From Succinimonas amylolytica DSM 2873 (GTDB lineage Bacteria; Pseudomonadota; Gammaproteobacteria; Enterobacterales; Succinivibrionaceae), in the NCBI RefSeq assembly GCF_000378405.1, contig NZ_KB899636.1, positions 1,002,657 through 1,066,656 on the forward strand: a stretch of DNA of 64,000 bases, read 5' to 3'. Shown here in pieces: positions 6,546-15,240 of this stretch. Made by a program: the position numbers and the translations under genes. The first letter of the stretch is position 1. Every line of letters starts with the position of its first letter. The notes under the pieces are model-generated. The model was not told the DNA's origin. It saw nothing but the letters and a program-made list of their open reading frames with translations, and did not search any database.

Positions 6546-6573
6546 TTGAAAATTTCAAACTTTGTGCTAGAAT
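6546..6573 (+). promoter_or_regulatory. sigma70-type promoter of feoAB
   Basis: TTGAAA (6546-6551) and TAGAAT (6568-6573) are separated by 16 bp, giving a start near 6580. The two palindromes that follow lie at about +5 to +40, where a bound repressor would block transcription. The rest of the 6289-6545 stretch holds no gene that I can see. Confidence 0.6.
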
Positions 6574-6658: not shown

Positions 6659-6889
6659 ATGTTGTTCAGCGAATTGAAATCGGGACAGGTCGCGGAAATC
6701 AAAGCGATAAAAGCCGGAGAACTTCATGCCCGCAGGCTTTATGAAATGGGATTTCTGCCGCATACCAGGATATCACTGGAGCATGTTGCCACCCTGGGAA
6801 GCCCGGTGATTGCGGGGATCAGAGGTTTTTGCATTGTTCTTGGAAAGAAGGATGCGGACTCTATTGAAGTGGAGGTGATTTCAGAATGA
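6659..6889 (+). CDS. feoA: ferrous iron transport protein A
   Basis: FeoA is a small cytoplasmic SH3-like protein that supports the FeoB iron(II) transporter. The 76-residue product has the family pattern L-x-x-G-x-x-A-x-I at the start, RRLYEMGFLP near residue 26, and a final GFCIVLGKKDADSIEVE strand region. It starts 39 bp after the operator pair with an AAGGA ribosome site and overlaps feoB by 4 bp (ATGA), so translation is likely coupled. Confidence 0.93.
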   Translation: MLFSELKSGQVAEIKAIKAGELHARRLYEMGFLPHTRISLEHVATLGSPVIAGIRGFCIVLGKKDADSIEVEVISE

Positions 6890-9120
6890 CGGGGAACACC
6901 AGATCCTGCTGCGAAACTCCGGATGTTACCGGAGATGCCTCAGCAAGAAAAGTCATGTTTATCGGCAATCCCAACTGCGGCAAAAGTACTTTGTTTAACC
7001 GGCTTTGCAATCTGCATGTCCGGACGGGAAATTATTCGGGGGTGACGGTAGCCCGTCATACTGGAAGATACTCGGACTCTATTCAGATGGTGGATCTTCC
7101 AGGTATTTACTCGCTATCCACGGCTTCTGCTGAGGAGCTTATAGCCCGGGACGAGCTGCTTAACGAACATTGCGATCTTCTTGTAGATATCGTGGATGCC
7201 ACTTCTCTGGAAAGAAGCCTTTACCTGACACTGGAACTCCGGCTTCTGGGACTTCCCATGGTACTTCTTCTCAATATGTGGGACGAAACCGAAAGGGAGG
7301 GGATTCAGATAGACGCTGCCGCTCTGGAAAAAGAGCTGGGTATCAGAGTTATCCCCATAAGCGCTACCAGAGGGGACGGTCTCAGGGAGTTTAGGGAATA
7401 TTTGGAGCACGGAGAATGGCTGCCTTCGGCCCCGTTCTGTCCTGGAAAATCCGAACTGTCAGCCGCTCTTACCGAATTAAGATCGGCGGTATCTCCAGAA
7501 TTTCAGAACCAGTCCTGTTTCTGGAGCATGAGTGCACTCCTGGGAGACGGAGTTCCCGAGAAATGCTTCCAGGATCCGGAAACGGCTAATGTGGTTGCTA
7601 AGTACCGGACTCTCCTGGCTTCAGGCAGTGAAAGCGGCAGTGTTTATGAGGCTGTAGCTGCGGAACGTTACGGATTTATTTCAGATTTTATCGCCCGTCA
7701 TGTCAGGGTGATCGCTCACCGGAAAACGCTGACACAGCGCATCGATTCGGTGGTACTTAACCGCTTTTGCTCTCCAATCATTTTTATTGCTGTCATGTTT
7801 CTGGTGTACTTTGTGTCGGTAACCTGGCTGGGGAGTATTGTCACTGACTGGACCAATGATGAGCTTTTCGGGGAAATGATTATTCCCTGGACCTCTGAAA
7901 TGATGGAAAAACTTGAGTTTTCCGAGCTGACCACTTCTCTGGTGAGTGACGGTATTATCGGTGGCGTGGGAGCGGTGCTGGGCTTTGTGCCGCAGATGCT
8001 GATTCTGTTTCTGATGCTGTCGCTTCTTGAGGAGTGCGGCTATATGACACGAGCCGCATTTTTTCTGGACCGGCTGTTTAACAGCTTTGGACTTAGTGGC
8101 AGGGCCTTTATCCCGTACATTATCGGTTCTGGCTGCGGAGTTCCGGCCCTTATGACGGTGCGAACCCTTCCCACCGAAAGCGAAAGAAGAGTTACGCTGT
8201 TTACGGCAACTATGATTCCCTGCAGTGCCAAGCTGCCGGTTATCGTACTCTTTGCTTCGGCCATATTCACCGACTATCCCTGGTTTCCGGTGGCTGTATA
8301 TCTTGCGGCAGTGGCAATAATCATTATTTCCGCTTTGATAATGCAGAAGTTTCAGACCTTCAAAACTTCACCGGCTCCGATGCTGCTGGAAATGCCTCTC
8401 TACCATATTCCGTCTCCCAGAGTAGTTTTTCTGACGGTATATCAAAGAGTGCGCGCTTTTATTAAAAAGGCCGGTACCATTATTCTGGCGTGTTCGCTGC
8501 TTATCTGGACTCTTTCTTCCCTGGGGTACACCGGTGAAGATGGGATTCACACTGTCTCGGATCCCGATGAGAGTATTCTTGCTGATGTGGCCGGGCCGGT
8601 ATCTGCAGTGTTTGCCCCCCTGGGTTTTGACGATTACCGGGCTACTGTAGCTACGGTTTCGGGGATGTCTGCCAAGGAGGTTATTGTAAGCACTCTCAGC
8701 GTGTTTGCCGGGGCTGAAGAGGATGCCATGGACAGTGAAGATGATGAGGTGGTTACCGGACTTTATGAAAGGGTGCGCAATAACATTTTTCATATTGATG
8801 AGATGGGAACAGCAGGAATTCTGGCTGCGCTGTCTTTTGTCCTGTTTAACCTCTTTACTGTGCCCTGTATCGCAGCAGTAGGAACCATGCACCGTGAAAT
8901 CGGAGGCGGACGTCTTTTCTGGTACGCCATTGCCTATCAGCTCGGCTTCAGCTATGCCTTTGCTTTTATTGTATATCAGATTTCTATGATGCTGGCTGGT
9001 TATGGATTCACGTTCTTTACCGGACTGGCAATGGCTCTGACGGCGGCTATTCTGTGGCTCATGTTCAGAAAAGGCCCCTCCCAGAGTGCTGAAATTCCCT
9101 TTGTGATGGTGTCCAGATAA
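6886..9120 (+). CDS. feoB: ferrous iron permease FeoB
   Basis: FeoB is the inner-membrane ferrous iron importer with a cytosolic GTPase domain. In the 744 residues one sees G1 GNPNCGKST (27-35), G2 region SGVTV (51-55), G3 DLPGIYSL (70-77) and G4 NMWDE (130-134). The C-terminal membrane part carries the gate motifs EECGYMTRAAF and GSGCGVPA. The length is close to E. coli FeoB (773). It overlaps feoA by 4 bp. No feoC follows; the next gene is a DtxR-type regulator. A weak hairpin-T terminator lies after it. Confidence 0.95.
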   Translation: MTGNTRSCCETPDVTGDASARKVMFIGNPNCGKSTLFNRLCNLHVRTGNYSGVTVARHTGRYSDSIQMVDLPGIYSLSTASAEELIARDELLNEHCDLLVDIVDATSLERSLYLTLELRLLGLPMVLLLNMWDETEREGIQIDAAALEKELGIRVIPISATRGDGLREFREYLEHGEWLPSAPFCPGKSELSAALTELRSAVSPEFQNQSCFWSMSALLGDGVPEKCFQDPETANVVAKYRTLLASGSESGSVYEAVAAERYGFISDFIARHVRVIAHRKTLTQRIDSVVLNRFCSPIIFIAVMFLVYFVSVTWLGSIVTDWTNDELFGEMIIPWTSEMMEKLEFSELTTSLVSDGIIGGVGAVLGFVPQMLILFLMLSLLEECGYMTRAAFFLDRLFNSFGLSGRAFIPYIIGSGCGVPALMTVRTLPTESERRVTLFTATMIPCSAKLPVIVLFASAIFTDYPWFPVAVYLAAVAIIIISALIMQKFQTFKTSPAPMLLEMPLYHIPSPRVVFLTVYQRVRAFIKKAGTIILACSLLIWTLSSLGYTGEDGIHTVSDPDESILADVAGPVSAVFAPLGFDDYRATVATVSGMSAKEVIVSTLSVFAGAEEDAMDSEDDEVVTGLYERVRNNIFHIDEMGTAGILAALSFVLFNLFTVPCIAAVGTMHREIGGGRLFWYAIAYQLGFSYAFAFIVYQISMMLAGYGFTFFTGLAMALTAAILWLMFRKGPSQSAEIPFVMVSR

Positions 9121-9166
9121 CCGGTTCAGGTCTCTGAATATCGCCTAGATTGCCGTGTGCTAAGTA

Positions 9167-9197
9167 AAGCCTTCCTTTTTGTCAGGAGGGCTTTTGT
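9167..9197 (+). terminator. probable terminator after feoB
   Basis: AAGCCTTCC pairs with GGAGGGCTT (one mismatch) and a T-rich tract follows. It separates feoAB from the regulator gene. Confidence 0.6.
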
Positions 9198-9328
9198 TTT
9201 TTCGGGACCATTATCAATTGTTTGTGCAATTGTTTGACTTTATCTGCGCTGCCCGCATATCATACCCCCACGGCAGTGGACAGCCGTCATTGGTATATTC
9301 TTGTTTATGGAACATGCGGAGAACAGCG

Positions 9329-10132
9329 GTGGCGATATATATAGATTCAGAATCCGAGGAGAATTATCTAGAGACCATTCTGATTTTAAGCACCATAAGT
9401 CCTTTTGTCAGAGGGGTTGATATCGCCAGTAAGCTTAATATTTCCCGGCCGTCGGTAAGCCGGGCGGTGGGGTTACTGCGGGATAAGGGGCTGGTGATTC
9501 TGGAAAAGGGGGCTTTTATCACTCTTACCGAGGAAGGTAAAAGAATCGCCCGGAAGGTGGCGTCCTACCATCGAGTTCTGAGAAGCTTTCTGGTTCATGT
9601 GGCATGTATTTCTCAGGAAAAGGCTGATATTGATGCCTGCCGTATTGAACATGTGGTAAGTGCCAGCACCATTCAGGGCATTAAAAGCTTTCTTAAGCGG
9701 GAAAATGTTCTTCCCGGCAATACCATTGATTCCTCGCATCTTCCGGAGATTCGGGAGCTTAACGAGTCCGGAGAAAACTATATTGAGCATATCTACATGA
9801 TGACCCGGGACGGAAAAAGGGTGCGTTCCACGGATCTGGCAAAAACTTTGGAGGTGTCCCGGGCATCCATCAGCCGTGCTATGGATGTGCTGTGCCATCT
9901 GGGGCTTCTGGAACGAGGGGAGAAGGGCGAACTTATTCTGACACCGGCAGGAGAGGAGAAGGCCCGCGGTATTTATGCCCGGCATGTGGTTTTGACCGGT
10001 TTTCTGGAAAAGATTTTGGGGGTATCTCCGAAAATTGCCGAAAAGGATGCCTGCCGCATTGAGCATATGCTTAGTGAGGAGACCTTTAACGGCATCAGAG
10101 CTTTCTGGGAAAAACACCAGGAGTCCTCCTGA
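9329..10132 (+). CDS. single-chain tandem DtxR-family iron-dependent regulator
   Basis: The 267-residue product consists of two DtxR/MntR-type units in tandem. Unit 1 covers about residues 8-125 and unit 2 about 146-262. Each has a winged helix (SKLNISRPSVSRAVGLL and KTLEVSRASISRAMDVL) and a dimerisation part. The metal motif ACRIEH occurs in both (C104/E107/H108 and C242/E245/H246), matching the C-x-x-E-H iron site of DtxR rather than the E-x-x-E-H of MntR. The DtxR Met10 position is Asn in both (N12, N150); H81 and H219 match a further ligand. There is no C-terminal SH3 domain. The GTG at 9329 is chosen because GGAG stands 7 bp upstream; an in-frame ATG at 9314 is possible. Position after feoAB and the feoA operators suggest it represses iron uptake. 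The function is inferred, the duplication is seen. Confidence 0.85.
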   Translation: MAIYIDSESEENYLETILILSTISPFVRGVDIASKLNISRPSVSRAVGLLRDKGLVILEKGAFITLTEEGKRIARKVASYHRVLRSFLVHVACISQEKADIDACRIEHVVSASTIQGIKSFLKRENVLPGNTIDSSHLPEIRELNESGENYIEHIYMMTRDGKRVRSTDLAKTLEVSRASISRAMDVLCHLGLLERGEKGELILTPAGEEKARGIYARHVVLTGFLEKILGVSPKIAEKDACRIEHMLSEETFNGIRAFWEKHQESS

Positions 10133-10971: not shown

Positions 10972-11859
10972 ATGGCTCTTTATGTAAATACCAATGTGTC
11001 ATCGCTGAACGCAAATCGTAACCTGGCAAATTCCACCTCCGCTCTAGACGTTTCCTACAAGCGTCTCGCTTCTGGCCTTCGTATCAACAGTGCTAAGGAT
11101 GATGCTGCCGGTCTTCAGATCTCAAACCGTCTGACTTCCCAGATCAACGGCCTTAATCAGGGAAACCGCAATGCGCAGGATGGCATATCCTATTCCCAGA
11201 CCGCAGAAGGTGCCATGGACGAAATGACTTCTATGTACCAGCGTATCAGAACTCTGGCACTTCAGTCTGCTAACGGTAGCAACTCTGATGCTGATCGTGC
11301 GGCGATTCAGCAGGAGGTAACCCAGCTCTGTACCGAAATAACCAGAATTGCCAATGATACCACCTATGGCGGAACTCATATTCTGGATGCCTCCATTGCT
11401 ACTCAGACACTGTTTCAGGTAGGTGCCAATGCCAACGAGACCATAGCCATAGATCTGACTTCGGGATTTACTCTGGATCAGACGAAGGCCGTAGTGGCAG
11501 CAGGTACTCTTACTGCCGATGAAACGACAGCTCTGGGAACAATTACAGCTACAGGTTTTGATGTAAGTACTCAGGCCAATGCCCAGAATACGCTGATGGT
11601 TGTTGATAAGTTTGTGGCTGTAATTGATGCCAAGCGAGCTGAGCTGGGTGCTGTACAGAACCGTCTGGAATCCACTATCAGAAACCAGACCAACGTTTCC
11701 GAAAATGTCTCCGACGCCAGAAGCCGCATTCGTGACGCCGATTTTGCTACTGAAACTGCGGCCATGACGCAGCAGAACATCCTGCAGCAGGCATCTCAGA
11801 GCATTCTGAGTCAGGCTAACCAGAGACCGCAGATTGCGCTCTCTCTGCTCCAGTCGTAA
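10972..11859 (+). CDS. flagellin 1
   Basis: This is a filament subunit of 295 residues, secreted by the flagellar type III system. The N-terminal D0/D1 part (residues 1-140) has LNANRNLANSTSALDVSYKR, the QRIRTLALQSANG stretch that corresponds to the region sensed by TLR5 in other species, and the conserved C-terminal D1/D0 part from about 200 to the end (QNRLESTIRNQ, LQQASQSILSQANQR). The central region is short, so D2/D3 are essentially absent. AGGAG lies 8 bp before the ATG. It is a monocistronic gene with its own promoter and terminator, 87-90 percent alike by eye to flagellin 3 at the ends. Confidence 0.95.
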   Translation: MALYVNTNVSSLNANRNLANSTSALDVSYKRLASGLRINSAKDDAAGLQISNRLTSQINGLNQGNRNAQDGISYSQTAEGAMDEMTSMYQRIRTLALQSANGSNSDADRAAIQQEVTQLCTEITRIANDTTYGGTHILDASIATQTLFQVGANANETIAIDLTSGFTLDQTKAVVAAGTLTADETTALGTITATGFDVSTQANAQNTLMVVDKFVAVIDAKRAELGAVQNRLESTIRNQTNVSENVSDARSRIRDADFATETAAMTQQNILQQASQSILSQANQRPQIALSLLQS

Positions 11860-11931
11860 CCGGAAATAACAGTAATGTCTGCCGTCTGATTATCCGGCAG
11901 GCAAGCGGAAGCATTTTACCCTTTCTCTCTT

Positions 11932-11983
11932 GAGCTTTATAGCTCTATCCCTTTGGCCGGCGAGTTTTCTCCGGCCCTTTTTG
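11932..11983 (+). terminator. 3' hairpin and terminator of flagellin 1
   Basis: A small hairpin (GAGCT-TTAT-AGCTC) precedes a GC-rich terminator (GGCCGG ... CCGGCC then T-run, 11955-11983). Almost the same 3' stretch follows flagellin 3. Confidence 0.85.
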
Positions 11984-12080
11984 TTTCAGGAAGGTTGGTG
12001 TAGCTGTCGTTTATCAGAGGCGGAGGCAGCATTTTTCCGGCAGATTTTCTGACAGTTCCTTCGGTTCTGGAGCGTTCGGA

Positions 12081-12094
12081 GTCAAAAACATGAC
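12081..12094 (+). promoter_or_regulatory. FleQ/FlrC-like enhancer box upstream of flagellin 2
   Basis: GTCAAAAACATGAC, identical to the box before flagellin 1, lies 139 bp upstream of the -24 GG. Confidence 0.6.
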
Positions 12095-12218
12095 CGGAAA
12101 TTCCGGCCTCCGGAGTTCACGGTTTTGCGTGTCTTTTCCTCGAGGAGATTTTTTAATCCTTTGAAAATCAGGGAGTGCGGTTTGGCGCATTTTATAGAGA
12201 TCTTTCAGATGAATATTC

Positions 12219-12234
12219 TGGCATGATTCTTTCA
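12219..12234 (+). promoter_or_regulatory. sigma54-like promoter of flagellin 2
   Basis: TGGCATGATTCTTTCA is identical to the flagellin 1 site, again with TTTC at -12. The start is predicted near 12245. Between 11984 and 12334 I see only these control sites. Confidence 0.65.
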
Positions 12235-12334
12235 TGGATAATGAAGCCCAGAGATTCCTGATAACGGAAAAATAAAAATGGAATGCAAACATTTTTATGG
12301 GCTCCCAGACAAGTTAAGCTCAGGAAATTAGCAT

Positions 12335-13852
12335 ATGGCACTTTATGTAAGTACTAACGTGTCCTCGCTGAATGCGAATCGTAATCTGGCTAATGCTACG
12401 AATTCACTCGATACCGCCTACAGGCGTCTGGCCTCCGGTCTCAGAATAAACAGTGCCAGAGATGATGCTGCGGGGCTTCAGATTTCAAACCGTCTGACTT
12501 CCCAGATCAACGGACTTCATCAGGGAAACCGCAATGCGCAGGATGGCATCTCCTATTCCCAGACTGCGGAAGGCGCCATGGATGAAATGGTTGGCATGTA
12601 TCAGCGTATCAGAACTCTGGCGCTTGAGTCAGCCAATGGCAGCAATTCCGATGCTGATCGTAAAGCCATTCAGCAGGAGGTTACCCAGCTCTGTCATGAA
12701 ATTACCAGAATCGCCGAAGACACTACTTTCGGCGGGATCCATATTCTCAACAAGTCTATTACGACGCCAACGGATTTTCAGGTGGGAGCCAATGCAAATG
12801 AAATAGTTAGCATTGATCTTACCTCGGGTTTCAGGCTGGACGATGCTTTTATGAAGCTATACAACGATGCCACTTCGACAGAACAGAGTCTTTTAATGAG
12901 CGCAGTTCCCAGGACAGTATCCTTTAATCAGGGCGGGACGTCACCTGTATTTGATGTGACTGCTGACTATTTTGCTCCCGAGGGACAGTATGCCATCAAG
13001 GTGTCGCAGCTGGCTGACAGCACGGCCGTTAAAAAATCATTTCCTTCATCCGGGGATACCTTTGGAGATGGCGGGACCATGACATTTTCCATTGGCTCCG
13101 GAACCGGGGCTCGGTCGTTTATTGTTGCAGTGGCAGATACAGACACACTTGCGGATATAGTGCAAAAAATCAACACGGCCTCTGGAAACTTCGGACTTGC
13201 TGCCACTTTAGTCTCCAATGCTGATGGGACATCTTCACTGACACTTACTTCATCTCTTAAGGGGGAGGCCTACAAAAACCTGACGGTAAACACTTTGGGG
13301 GCCGCCGAGCTGAGTCCTTTCTCTTTCAGTGTCTCCGGGAGCGGTGCTTCCGGAGGCTGGGATGCCGAAAAGATCGGTCAGGACACGATTGTGGATATTT
13401 CCGGAGAAACCCTTAAAAGTGCCGGTAACACTGTATATTCTTCGTCCAAGGGGCTTACTATAGCCGCCAACCGCCTGTCAGACACTCAGGACGGCACACC
13501 GAATACCCCGTTTGTGGCCACAGATATCACAGTGAATCCGGAGGCCATGTTTTCGGTGGAAACCGCGGCCAATGCCCAGAACACTCTGGCCGTGGTGGAT
13601 AAGTTTATTGCCTGTATTGACAGTAAAAGAGCCGAGCTCGGTGCTGTGCAGAACCGTCTGGAATCTACCATCAGAAACCAGACTAACGTGGCCGAAAATA
13701 TCTCCGATGCCAGAAGCCGTATACGCGATGCCGACTTTGCTTCGGAAACCGCGGTCATGACGCAGCAGAATATTCTGCAGCAGGCCTCTCAGAGTATTCT
13801 GAGTCAGGCCAATCAGAGAACTCAGGTGGCCCTGTCGCTGCTCCAGTCGTAA
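12335..13852 (+). CDS. flagellin 2, large flagellin with a FliD-like central insert
   Basis: A 505-residue flagellin. Residues 1-170 and about 405-505 are the normal D0/D1 ends (QNRLESTIRNQ, LQQASQSILSQANQR). Residues about 200-385 are an extra surface module not found in flagellins 1 and 3. This module aligns along its length with residues about 83-275 of FliD encoded at 16216: SPVF/DPVF, GQYAIKVSQLADST/GNYNLTVKQLAQST, DTFGDGGTMTFSIGSG/ETFGSGGSLTFAIGSG, DTLADIVQKIN/DTLNDIRNKIN, KGLTIAANRLSDT/KGLKITVNRLSDT. It probably decorates the filament or forms a distal or minor filament segment; that role is inference. ATG with AGGAAA upstream. No clear terminator follows. Confidence 0.95.
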   Translation: MALYVSTNVSSLNANRNLANATNSLDTAYRRLASGLRINSARDDAAGLQISNRLTSQINGLHQGNRNAQDGISYSQTAEGAMDEMVGMYQRIRTLALESANGSNSDADRKAIQQEVTQLCHEITRIAEDTTFGGIHILNKSITTPTDFQVGANANEIVSIDLTSGFRLDDAFMKLYNDATSTEQSLLMSAVPRTVSFNQGGTSPVFDVTADYFAPEGQYAIKVSQLADSTAVKKSFPSSGDTFGDGGTMTFSIGSGTGARSFIVAVADTDTLADIVQKINTASGNFGLAATLVSNADGTSSLTLTSSLKGEAYKNLTVNTLGAAELSPFSFSVSGSGASGGWDAEKIGQDTIVDISGETLKSAGNTVYSSSKGLTIAANRLSDTQDGTPNTPFVATDITVNPEAMFSVETAANAQNTLAVVDKFIACIDSKRAELGAVQNRLESTIRNQTNVAENISDARSRIRDADFASETAVMTQQNILQQASQSILSQANQRTQVALSLLQS

Positions 13853-14019
13853 CCGGCGTCATACCGGGCAGGGATGTACGGCCCAAAAGCAGGTTTTTGA
13901 CAGTTTCTTGATTGTCCAGACATAAGCTCTGTTTCTTTTGCCGGAGGTTTTTTTCGGTATTTTGTTTCTGGAAGGGATTTTTCGGGCGTTTTTTTTCTGG
14001 ACGGCAATAATCTGCCGCC

Positions 14020-14033
14020 GTCAAAATCATGAC
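14020..14033 (+). promoter_or_regulatory. FleQ/FlrC-like enhancer box upstream of flagellin 3
   Basis: GTCAAAATCATGAC, one base from the boxes before flagellins 1 and 2, lies 117 bp upstream of the -24 GG. Confidence 0.58.
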
Positions 14034-14135
14034 CGCCGGGTTTCTGGAATGTGAGGATCTGTACCGTCTCGAAACAGCCGCAGCACTCCTTTCATATCAG
14101 TGAACGCAAACATTTATTTCCTGATTTCTGATGAC

Positions 14136-14151
14136 TGGCACGGTTCTTTCA
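14136..14151 (+). promoter_or_regulatory. sigma54-like promoter of flagellin 3
   Basis: TGGCACGGTTCTTTCA has a full -24 TGGCACG and again TTTC in place of TTGC at -12. The start is predicted near 14162. The 13853-14316 stretch otherwise has no gene. Confidence 0.65.
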
Positions 14152-14316
14152 TATGAAACTGATGCGGGGATAGCCCCGGAATATAACAATAAACCGAAGG
14201 GGTGCGAAAGCGAAGAGCAGTTTCCGGAATCAGACAAGAGAAGAATGAAACAGATGTCTGAAAATTAGGTTTTGGTACCTGCTTCGGAAAGACAGTCAAG
14301 CTCAGGAGATTTAAAA

Positions 14317-15240
14317 ATGGCTCTTTATGTAAATACCAACGTGTCGTCGCTGAATGCGAACCGTAATCTGGCAAATTCCACTGCCGCACTGGACGTTTCC
14401 TACAGGCGTCTTGCTTCCGGACTTCGAATTAACAGTGCCAAGGATGATGCTGCCGGTCTTCAGATCTCAAACCGTCTGACCTCCCAGATCAATGGCCTCA
14501 ATCAGGGAAACCGCAACGCTCAGGATGGCATATCCTATTCCCAGACCGCAGAGGGTGCTATGGACGAAATGACTGCCATGTACCAGCGTATCAGAACCCT
14601 GGCACTTCAGTCTGCCAACGGCAGTAATTCCCAGGCAGACCGCGATGCCATTCAGCAGGAAGTAACCCAGCTTTGCACCGAGATTACCAGAATCGGTGAG
14701 GATACCACCTACGGCGGTACTCATATCCTTAACAAATCCATTACTACCTTGACTGATTTTCAGGTAGGTGCCAATGCCAATGAGGTTATCAGCATTGACC
14801 TTACCGACGGTTTCAGAATGAACGATGTTTATACGACCATTTATACGGATGCCAATACCACTGCTGCCGAAAAGACCCAGCTGGACAGTGCCGTGGCCAA
14901 TACCGGAGATACATCTGCCCATGCCGCCGGCATTCACTTTGATGTATCAAGCCAGACTGCAGCCCAGGACACACTGGCTGTGGTGGATAAGTTTGTAGCA
15001 GTGATTGACGCTAAGCGGGCCGAGCTTGGTGCCGTGCAGAACCGTCTGGAATCAACCATCAGAAACCAGACCAACGTTTCTGAAAATGTCTCTGACGCCA
15101 GAAGCCGCATCCGCGATGCCGACTTTGCTACTGAAACAGCGGCTATGACCCAGCAGAATATTTTGCAGCAGGCTTCCCAGAGCATCCTGAGTCAGGCTAA
15201 CCAGAGACCGCAGATTGCGCTTTCACTGCTTCAGTCCTAA
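14317..15240 (+). CDS. flagellin 3
   Basis: A filament subunit of 307 residues with the same D0/D1 ends as flagellin 1 and a short central region slightly longer than that of flagellin 1. The first ATG of the open frame is at 14272, but the start with the CAGGAG ribosome site and the conserved MALYVNTNVSSLN opening is at 14317. Flagellins 1 and 3 end in the same NQRPQIALSLLQS and share 3' sequence, so they are the closest pair and probably the most recent duplication. It is followed by its own terminator. Confidence 0.95.
   Translation: MALYVNTNVSSLNANRNLANSTAALDVSYRRLASGLRINSAKDDAAGLQISNRLTSQINGLNQGNRNAQDGISYSQTAEGAMDEMTAMYQRIRTLALQSANGSNSQADRDAIQQEVTQLCTEITRIGEDTTYGGTHILNKSITTLTDFQVGANANEVISIDLTDGFRMNDVYTTIYTDANTTAAEKTQLDSAVANTGDTSAHAAGIHFDVSSQTAAQDTLAVVDKFVAVIDAKRAELGAVQNRLESTIRNQTNVSENVSDARSRIRDADFATETAAMTQQNILQQASQSILSQANQRPQIALSLLQS

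Follow-up and report, generated by a model that had tools for sequence, protein, structure and literature searches.

In DtxR and IdeR, the apo-protein is mostly monomeric and metal binding leads to the dimer, and the question whether metal-binding cooperativity operates within or between the units is listed as open (PMC10317159, in excerpt). One IdeR dimer occupies a 14-bp site, TTAGGNNNNCCTAA (PMC8464063, in excerpt). One unit per chain is characteristic of the DtxR/MntR superfamily, while a single frame encodes two of them in the repressor described here. Single-chain pseudodimers include TraY and repressors engineered as single chains. The double histone fold is a natural one (PMC13088155, in excerpt). 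All of them have come from a homodimer to one chain by duplication and fusion, as appears to be the case here, but their folds are different and they are not metal sensors.

The window analyzed, a stretch of 64,000 nucleotides of the Succinimonas amylolytica DSM 2873 genome, harbors a tandem DtxR-family repressor gene with feoA and feoB directly upstream (Table 1). Like MntR of B. subtilis, B. halodurans, and E. coli, its halves are MntR-sized without the SH3 domain, have the same fold (Z 13–14), and retain Glu at the Glu11 position and the His, Glu, and His ligand positions; the differences are two units per chain, Cys for Glu99, and presumed iron-gene targets. With DtxR and IdeR it shares Cys at the Cys102 position and TTAG...CTAA boxes with the one-dimer IdeR geometry (PMC8464063, in excerpt), but it has neither the SH3 domain nor Met10, has two units per chain, never has His at the His98 position, and retains Glu83 only in four of nine C-halves; moreover, its boxes lie 20 bp apart instead of forming an overlapping 19-bp site. 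The nearest sequence relatives of the halves are the single-unit DtxR proteins of Succinivibrionaceae (37–53% to the halves, same Cys, same feo boxes) and short proteins called “metal-dependent transcriptional regulator” in gut Bacillota and Collinsella (37–45%, seven rows, same Cys), both of which differ in having one unit per chain. Judged from its sequence, the tandem repressor is a natural, lineage-specific single-chain version of the DtxR dimer and most likely the repressor of feoAB. Such a covalent natural dimer makes the cooperativity question directly testable, as ligands can be altered one half at a time.

Table 1. Features of the feoAB–repressor region and related loci (window positions unless a genome or locus code is given).
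Feature	Position	Strand	Detail or basis
Sigma70-like feoAB promoter	6546..6573	+	TTGAAA-N16-TAGAAT, TG before -10; consensus match only
Presumed operator box 1, TTAGCATTTGCTAA	6585..6598	.	exact TTAGCANNTGCTAA and leader survey
Presumed operator box 2, TTAGCAAATGCTAA	6605..6618	.	20 bp from box 1
feoA	6659..6889	+	Pfam FeoA
feoB	6886..9120	+	NCBIfam TIGR00437 above cut-off
Terminator-like stem-loop and T-run, feoB/repressor intergenic	9166..9202	+	pattern match
Promoter-like site of repressor gene	9234..9263	+	TTGACT-N18-TATCAT; consensus match
Tandem DtxR-family repressor gene	9329..10132	+	267 aa, GTG start at 9329, TGA at 10132
N-terminal DtxR unit, residues 5–133	9341..9727	+	fold match and ligand table
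Linker, residues 126–146, SH[LFV]P motif	9704..9766	+	motif survey, pLDDT
C-terminal DtxR unit, residues 144–267	9758..10129	+	fold match and ligand table
N-half ligand-type residues	N12, E15, H81, C104, E107, H108
C-half ligand-type residues	N150, E153, H219, C242, E245, H246
Flagellin-like genes (three)	10972–11859, 12335–13852, 14272–15240		span 10972–15240
Partial Fur-like gene	G000:C4:90253-90426 (L033 1420-1884)		also L044, L048, L049, L054
DtxR-like paralogue	L041 7030-7779 (G026:C59:10029-10778)	-
Second box pair, TTAG-N6-CTAA-like	L238 1501-1535 (G000:C2:388424-388458)		20 bp apart, one mismatched

Two DtxR/MntR units in one reading frame

The gene is a single open frame without interruption. 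Two stretches of the protein match each of the Pfam families Fe_dep_repress and Fe_dep_repr_C (70.7 and 108.9 bits), and the protein scores for the winged helix (PF01325) and the metal-binding dimerization domain (PF02742) exceed the gathering scores. In an AlphaFold2 model based on an alignment of three rows, the window protein and two relatives (pLDDT 78.6, pTM 0.66), residues 4–127 resemble B. halodurans MntR (6kta_B; VIA-align Z 14.2, 2.4 Å, 122 residues) and residues 145–267 resemble B. subtilis MntR (4hv6_A; VIA-align Z 13.5, 1.9 Å, 122 residues). The structure prediction that an earlier sequence-only reading of this DNA had suggested for the monomer thus gives two MntR-like units and, together with the single frame and the two Pfam stretches, bears out its view of two DtxR units in one chain; the separate C-x-x-E-H motif that it had assigned to each half is found as C104/E107/H108 and C242/E245/H246. 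The predicted placement of the halves relative to each other is only moderately sure, and the linker is poorly predicted (pLDDT below 50 for residues 138–146). Its SH[LFV]P motif occurs in all nine tandem proteins and in none of the 31 single-unit proteins. The second unit ends at the C-terminus of the 267-aa protein, with zero residues remaining for an SH3 domain.

Fifty-four of the 56 genomes of Succinivibrionaceae, a family found in the rumen and gut, have a DtxR match (none was found in G035 and G053), and DtxR is accordingly not exceptional in this family, although its presence in a gammaproteobacterial feo locus had been considered unusual. In eight of the 56, the match covers both halves in one frame. 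These are the window genome (G000) and G028 of genus group g1, G021 of g7, G023–G026 of g9, and G055 of g14; the remaining 46 genomes with a match have single units. With UBA3769 (locus L002), which has no group code and was assigned to g1 by sequence, the tandem layout is found in nine genomes, eight of them from four Succinivibrionaceae genus groups. Locus L001 is a letter-for-letter part of the G028 contig and was counted once. In codon comparisons, dN/dS was 0.074 for the N-half and 0.075 for the C-half against L001, and 0.22 and 0.12, respectively, against L002. Both halves are under purifying selection. The recurrence in nine genomes and the low dN/dS against L001 exclude a chance or assembly join. 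A frameshift or assembly error joining two genes, by which the tandem layout might have been explained away, found no support and is refuted by the relatives, given the single frames and the linker motif of all nine.

A single DtxR gene was found in the window genome, with no second one, and the same holds for each of the eight double-form genomes searched except G026. This genome has a diverged DtxR-like paralogue that is collinear with both halves of the window protein at 21% identity; Pfam supports its first half only, and C-x-x-E-H is, by eye, broken in both. It lies near genes that we take to resemble those for a substrate-binding protein and for the catalytic subunit of a carbon monoxide dehydrogenase. 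In a rather speculative reading, the fused scaffold would have been reused here for another signal.

Outside the family, the double form was not found in 368 other gammaproteobacterial genomes, 33 of which have a match, none covering both halves. On plasmids (72,556 records, 199 with match), there was no double form among the 30 matches listed; the rows covering most of the query have matched lengths of 339–489 bases, so both halves match one single unit there. Phages (50,697 records, eight matches) gave no double form, with spans up to 450 bases, and nothing was found in viral contigs with patterns taken from close sequences only. For a contig collection of 84,980 species, the scan used only short exact patterns from the window protein, which detect close relatives. 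The sole long single-piece match, in Nonomuraea (H23), turned out to be a single DtxR unit of the usual kind whose C-terminal part differs. Rarity of the double form outside Succinivibrionaceae is thus only partly tested, by the class sample, plasmids, phages, and contig pattern scans. Within the titles and abstract beginnings of open-licence PMC literature, a description of a tandem DtxR was not found, nor one of iron regulation in Ruminobacter or Succinivibrio or of a Succinivibrionaceae iron regulator.

Origin of the fusion and the partial Fur

A tree of 65 rows was made from 18 halves, 31 single units, and 16 other sequences, in which 31 of the 46 single-form genomes are represented; G054, having no clean open frame, and 14 further genomes were left out. 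The Succinivibrionaceae proteins form one group (support 95/90), the N-halves form one clade (94/89), and the C-halves do so weakly (72/45), and N- and C-halves together are one clade (76/87). An independent duplication within the Ruminobacter group has a p-AU of 0.09 and is not rejected. In the simplest reading, one duplication and fusion would have taken place in an ancestor shared by the four genus groups. The tree favors this reading with modest support, in agreement with the lineage-specific duplication that had been suspected. Outside the family, short regulators of gut Bacillota and Collinsella come closest in the tree, rather than the MntR of gammaproteobacteria. These seven rows are a lead, not a proof, that dtxR may have been acquired horizontally.

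The search for Fur in the window genome, likewise suggested by the sequence-only reading, gave no full-length match: the only Fur-family match is partial, covering profile positions 1–60 of 121, in a genome 97% complete. None of the eight double-form genomes searched has a full-length Fur match, and each has one partial match. Many single-form genomes have full-length Fur matches too, and seven genomes have no Fur match at all. The partial Fur-like protein has a winged helix, but the metal-binding second half of the Fur profile has no match in it. In four of five single-form loci inspected, this Fur-like winged-helix gene lies directly before dtxR, a difference from the locus in the window.

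A hybrid metal site in both halves

Each half has six ligand-type residues (Table 1), which we take to be, on MntR/DtxR numbering, Asn (Asp8/Met10), Glu (Glu11), His (His77/79), Cys (Glu99/Cys102), Glu, and His. The equivalences were partly checked against published descriptions (PMC10317159; PMC2628430, both in excerpt). The last five, i.e., E15, H81, C104, E107, and H108 of the N-half and their counterparts, are invariant in nine N-halves, nine C-halves, and 31 singles. At the first position, the singles have Asn (18/31) or Thr (13/31), and one C-half has Asp, so this residue may not be a ligand. By its residues, the metal site is a hybrid with MntR-like Glu11 and Asn and a DtxR-like Cys. 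From the Met10 and Cys102 pair of DtxR/IdeR, Cys is present and Met is replaced by Asn in both halves; the MntR set (Asp/Asn8, Glu11, His77, Glu99, Glu102, and His103) is present except for Glu99, which is Cys here. The Cys and Asn pointed out in the sequence-only reading do exist in both halves, but they do not distinguish the tandem protein, the singles having Cys in 31/31 and Asn in 18/31.

Fe2+ is the most likely co-repressor metal because of the Cys and the boxes before the feo genes. Or the tandem repressor may be an MntR-like sensor of Mn2+, or of both metals, that stands beside feoAB by chance. It has Glu at the MntR Glu11 position and Asn in place of Met10, as in some MntR (PMC10317159, in excerpt), and the only NCBIfam model that it passed is that of MntR (NF008273), narrowly and with the scores of the two units summed (155.9 vs. 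a cut-off of 153). However, every half and single examined has Cys where DtxR has Cys102, a sulfur ligand is linked to Fe selectivity (PMC10317159, in excerpt), and the conserved boxes are found before feoAB; an Mn2+ sensor is therefore an unlikely reading, though one to be kept in mind.

The halves show a small asymmetry at the position aligned with IdeR Pro39, which is Pro in seven of nine N-halves and Ala in eight of nine C-halves. The Arg preceding the ligand His has been lost in seven of nine N-halves. This loss, together with the faster change of the N-half against L002, could indicate that repression is left to one half, the other being a copy in decay or with a structural role. It is quite improbable, as none of the nine doubles has lost, in either half, the invariant ligand-type residues or recognition-helix Ser39, Ser42, Ser44, and Arg45, and as both halves are strongly constrained against L001. 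A further, rather speculative idea is that the halves, freed by the fusion, have diverged in metal affinity or preference, because the N-half is changed beside the ligand His and the C-half has Ala for the base-contacting Pro. The protein would then act at one symmetric operator as an AND gate, either graded or for two metals, and perhaps as a master iron repressor, since it is encoded by the only DtxR gene (apart from the G026 paralogue) and a full-length Fur match is missing.

Candidate operator and proposed mode of action

The presumed operator was surveyed in 54 Succinivibrionaceae feo leaders, nine of double-form genomes and 45 others, the latter including those of G035 and G053. Each leader was 700 bp where available; that of G006 is 496 bp, that of G039 is cut by a contig end, and leaders are absent for G044, G046, and G052, which have no full feoB. 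Among 3,328 patterns (256 palindromic tetramers with spacers of 0–12), TTAG-N6-CTAA (14 bp) ranked first by leaders, with 49 sites in 34 of 54, while TTAG/CTAA at other spacings gave 0–9 sites and the reversed control gave four. The pattern of second rank, GTTA-N8-TAAC, represents largely the same sites shifted by one base. The third, CTAA-N6-TTAG (17 leaders), is the junction expected from boxes 20 bp apart, and in 10 of the 17 it has fitting outer arms (one mismatch or less). The exact box is present in all nine double-form leaders and in 25 of 45 others; as the other 20 are without it, the box is not universal. Its geometry equals that of IdeR TTAGGNNNNCCTAA (PMC8464063, in excerpt), whose inner G and C are not conserved here. 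The feo sites described in delta-proteobacteria are Fur boxes and have no relation to TTAG-N6-CTAA (PMC545781, in excerpt). Because the geometry is that of a one-dimer site, one box would be read by one dimer and, by inference, by one fused chain. The same boxes are present in single-unit genomes, where reading them would take a dimer. Succinivibrionaceae therefore provide a before-and-after comparison, in which single and fused forms face the same kind of boxes, and the boxes are a testable candidate iron-regulation site for this family.

Exact TTAGCANNTGCTAA occurs only twice in the 3.96-Mb window genome, both before feoA. Box 1 starts 12 bp past the -10 of the promoter-like site, the four half-sites are arranged at 10-bp steps, and the same box pair is found in the leaders of the two other Ruminobacter-type loci, L034 and L002. 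The sequence-only reading had predicted a palindrome with unequal halves. Instead, the 6-bp arms TTAGCA/TGCTAA of both window boxes are perfectly symmetric, and operator asymmetry through fusion was rejected, since double-form sites are no more asymmetric than others (mean mismatches over nine positions, 2.63 vs. 3.21). Doubling of the operator through fusion was likewise rejected: exact boxes gave 8/9 vs. 3/45, a difference that is gone when one mismatch is allowed.

The commonest spacing of neighboring boxes is 20 bp. In another arrangement, double chains would dimerize, N with N′ and C with C′, and four winged helices would read both boxes as a unit on one DNA face. A second box, exact or with one mismatch, in eight of nine double-form leaders, the half-sites at 10-bp steps, and the unlikeness of N- and C-halves at the Pro39-aligned residue would all fit such a tetrad. 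But the second box is equally common elsewhere (21 of 25 other box-bearing leaders, Fisher p = 1, in counts that include genomes that are near-copies of each other), and the arms of each box are self-symmetric, as required for reading by a single chain or a single dimer; the arrangement is thus doubtful. Being as common in other genomes, the second box did not arise with the fusion, and the operator seems to be older than the fusion and to have been left unchanged by it.

Probably, then, the protein is a natural single-chain pseudodimer that represses feoAB with one chain per box; metal, pairing, binding, and repression are what we infer from the features above. In this working model, fusion has joined the two units of the usual DtxR homodimer head to tail. 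With ample co-repressor metal, most likely Fe2+, both halves would be filled, and one chain would use its pair of winged helices to grip a single 14-bp TTAG-N6-CTAA box. Two chains would occupy both boxes, just downstream of the feoAB promoter and over the transcript start, so that feoAB would be off and ferrous iron uptake blocked; when iron is scarce, the chains would leave the boxes. Fusion would remove the dimerization step, and the response would thereby be set by metal occupancy, not by protein concentration.

A larger regulon is not supported, as DTTAGN6CTAAH shows no genome-wide enrichment (17 sites vs. 43 in the reversed control). Concerning autoregulation, no exact box was found near the repressor gene in double-form genomes, with one distant hit in G055. 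Among the singles, a box lies 0.7–1.0 kb upstream of dtxR in 9 of 31, which is weak evidence for autoregulation because the control spacing N0 gives seven sites.

A second pair of boxes in the window genome (L238 in Table 1) precedes a short, broken reading frame, which resembles the start of an outer-membrane receptor and has no Pfam match. Its DTISVTANK is presumably TonB-box-like. The fragment downstream of the pair has relatives in five others of the 56 genomes, G023–G026 and G055, all of double form, with no exact box in about 0.5 kb before these relatives. In g9, the feo leaders (L199, L200, and L152) have three-box arrays with spacings of 29 and 22–23 bp, unlike the 20-bp pairs elsewhere, and the middle box of the L152 array has a mismatch.

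As for the neighborhood, feoB is the sole match to the FeoB C-terminal family in the window genome, and adjacency of dtxR to feoAB was seen only in Ruminobacter-type loci (window, L034, and L002), within the flanks fetched, some of which are short. Sequences similar to both promoter-like sites exist in L034 and L002. The promoter-like and terminator-like sites near the repressor gene are leads, since consensus matches of these kinds, that of the feoAB promoter included, are hardly commoner in the region than in shuffles (5 vs. 3.9 and 7 vs. 4.9, respectively). Genes that we take to be flgK/flgL-like are located upstream of feoA. Downstream of the repressor gene, there are three consecutive flagellin-like genes whose ends are similar by eye.
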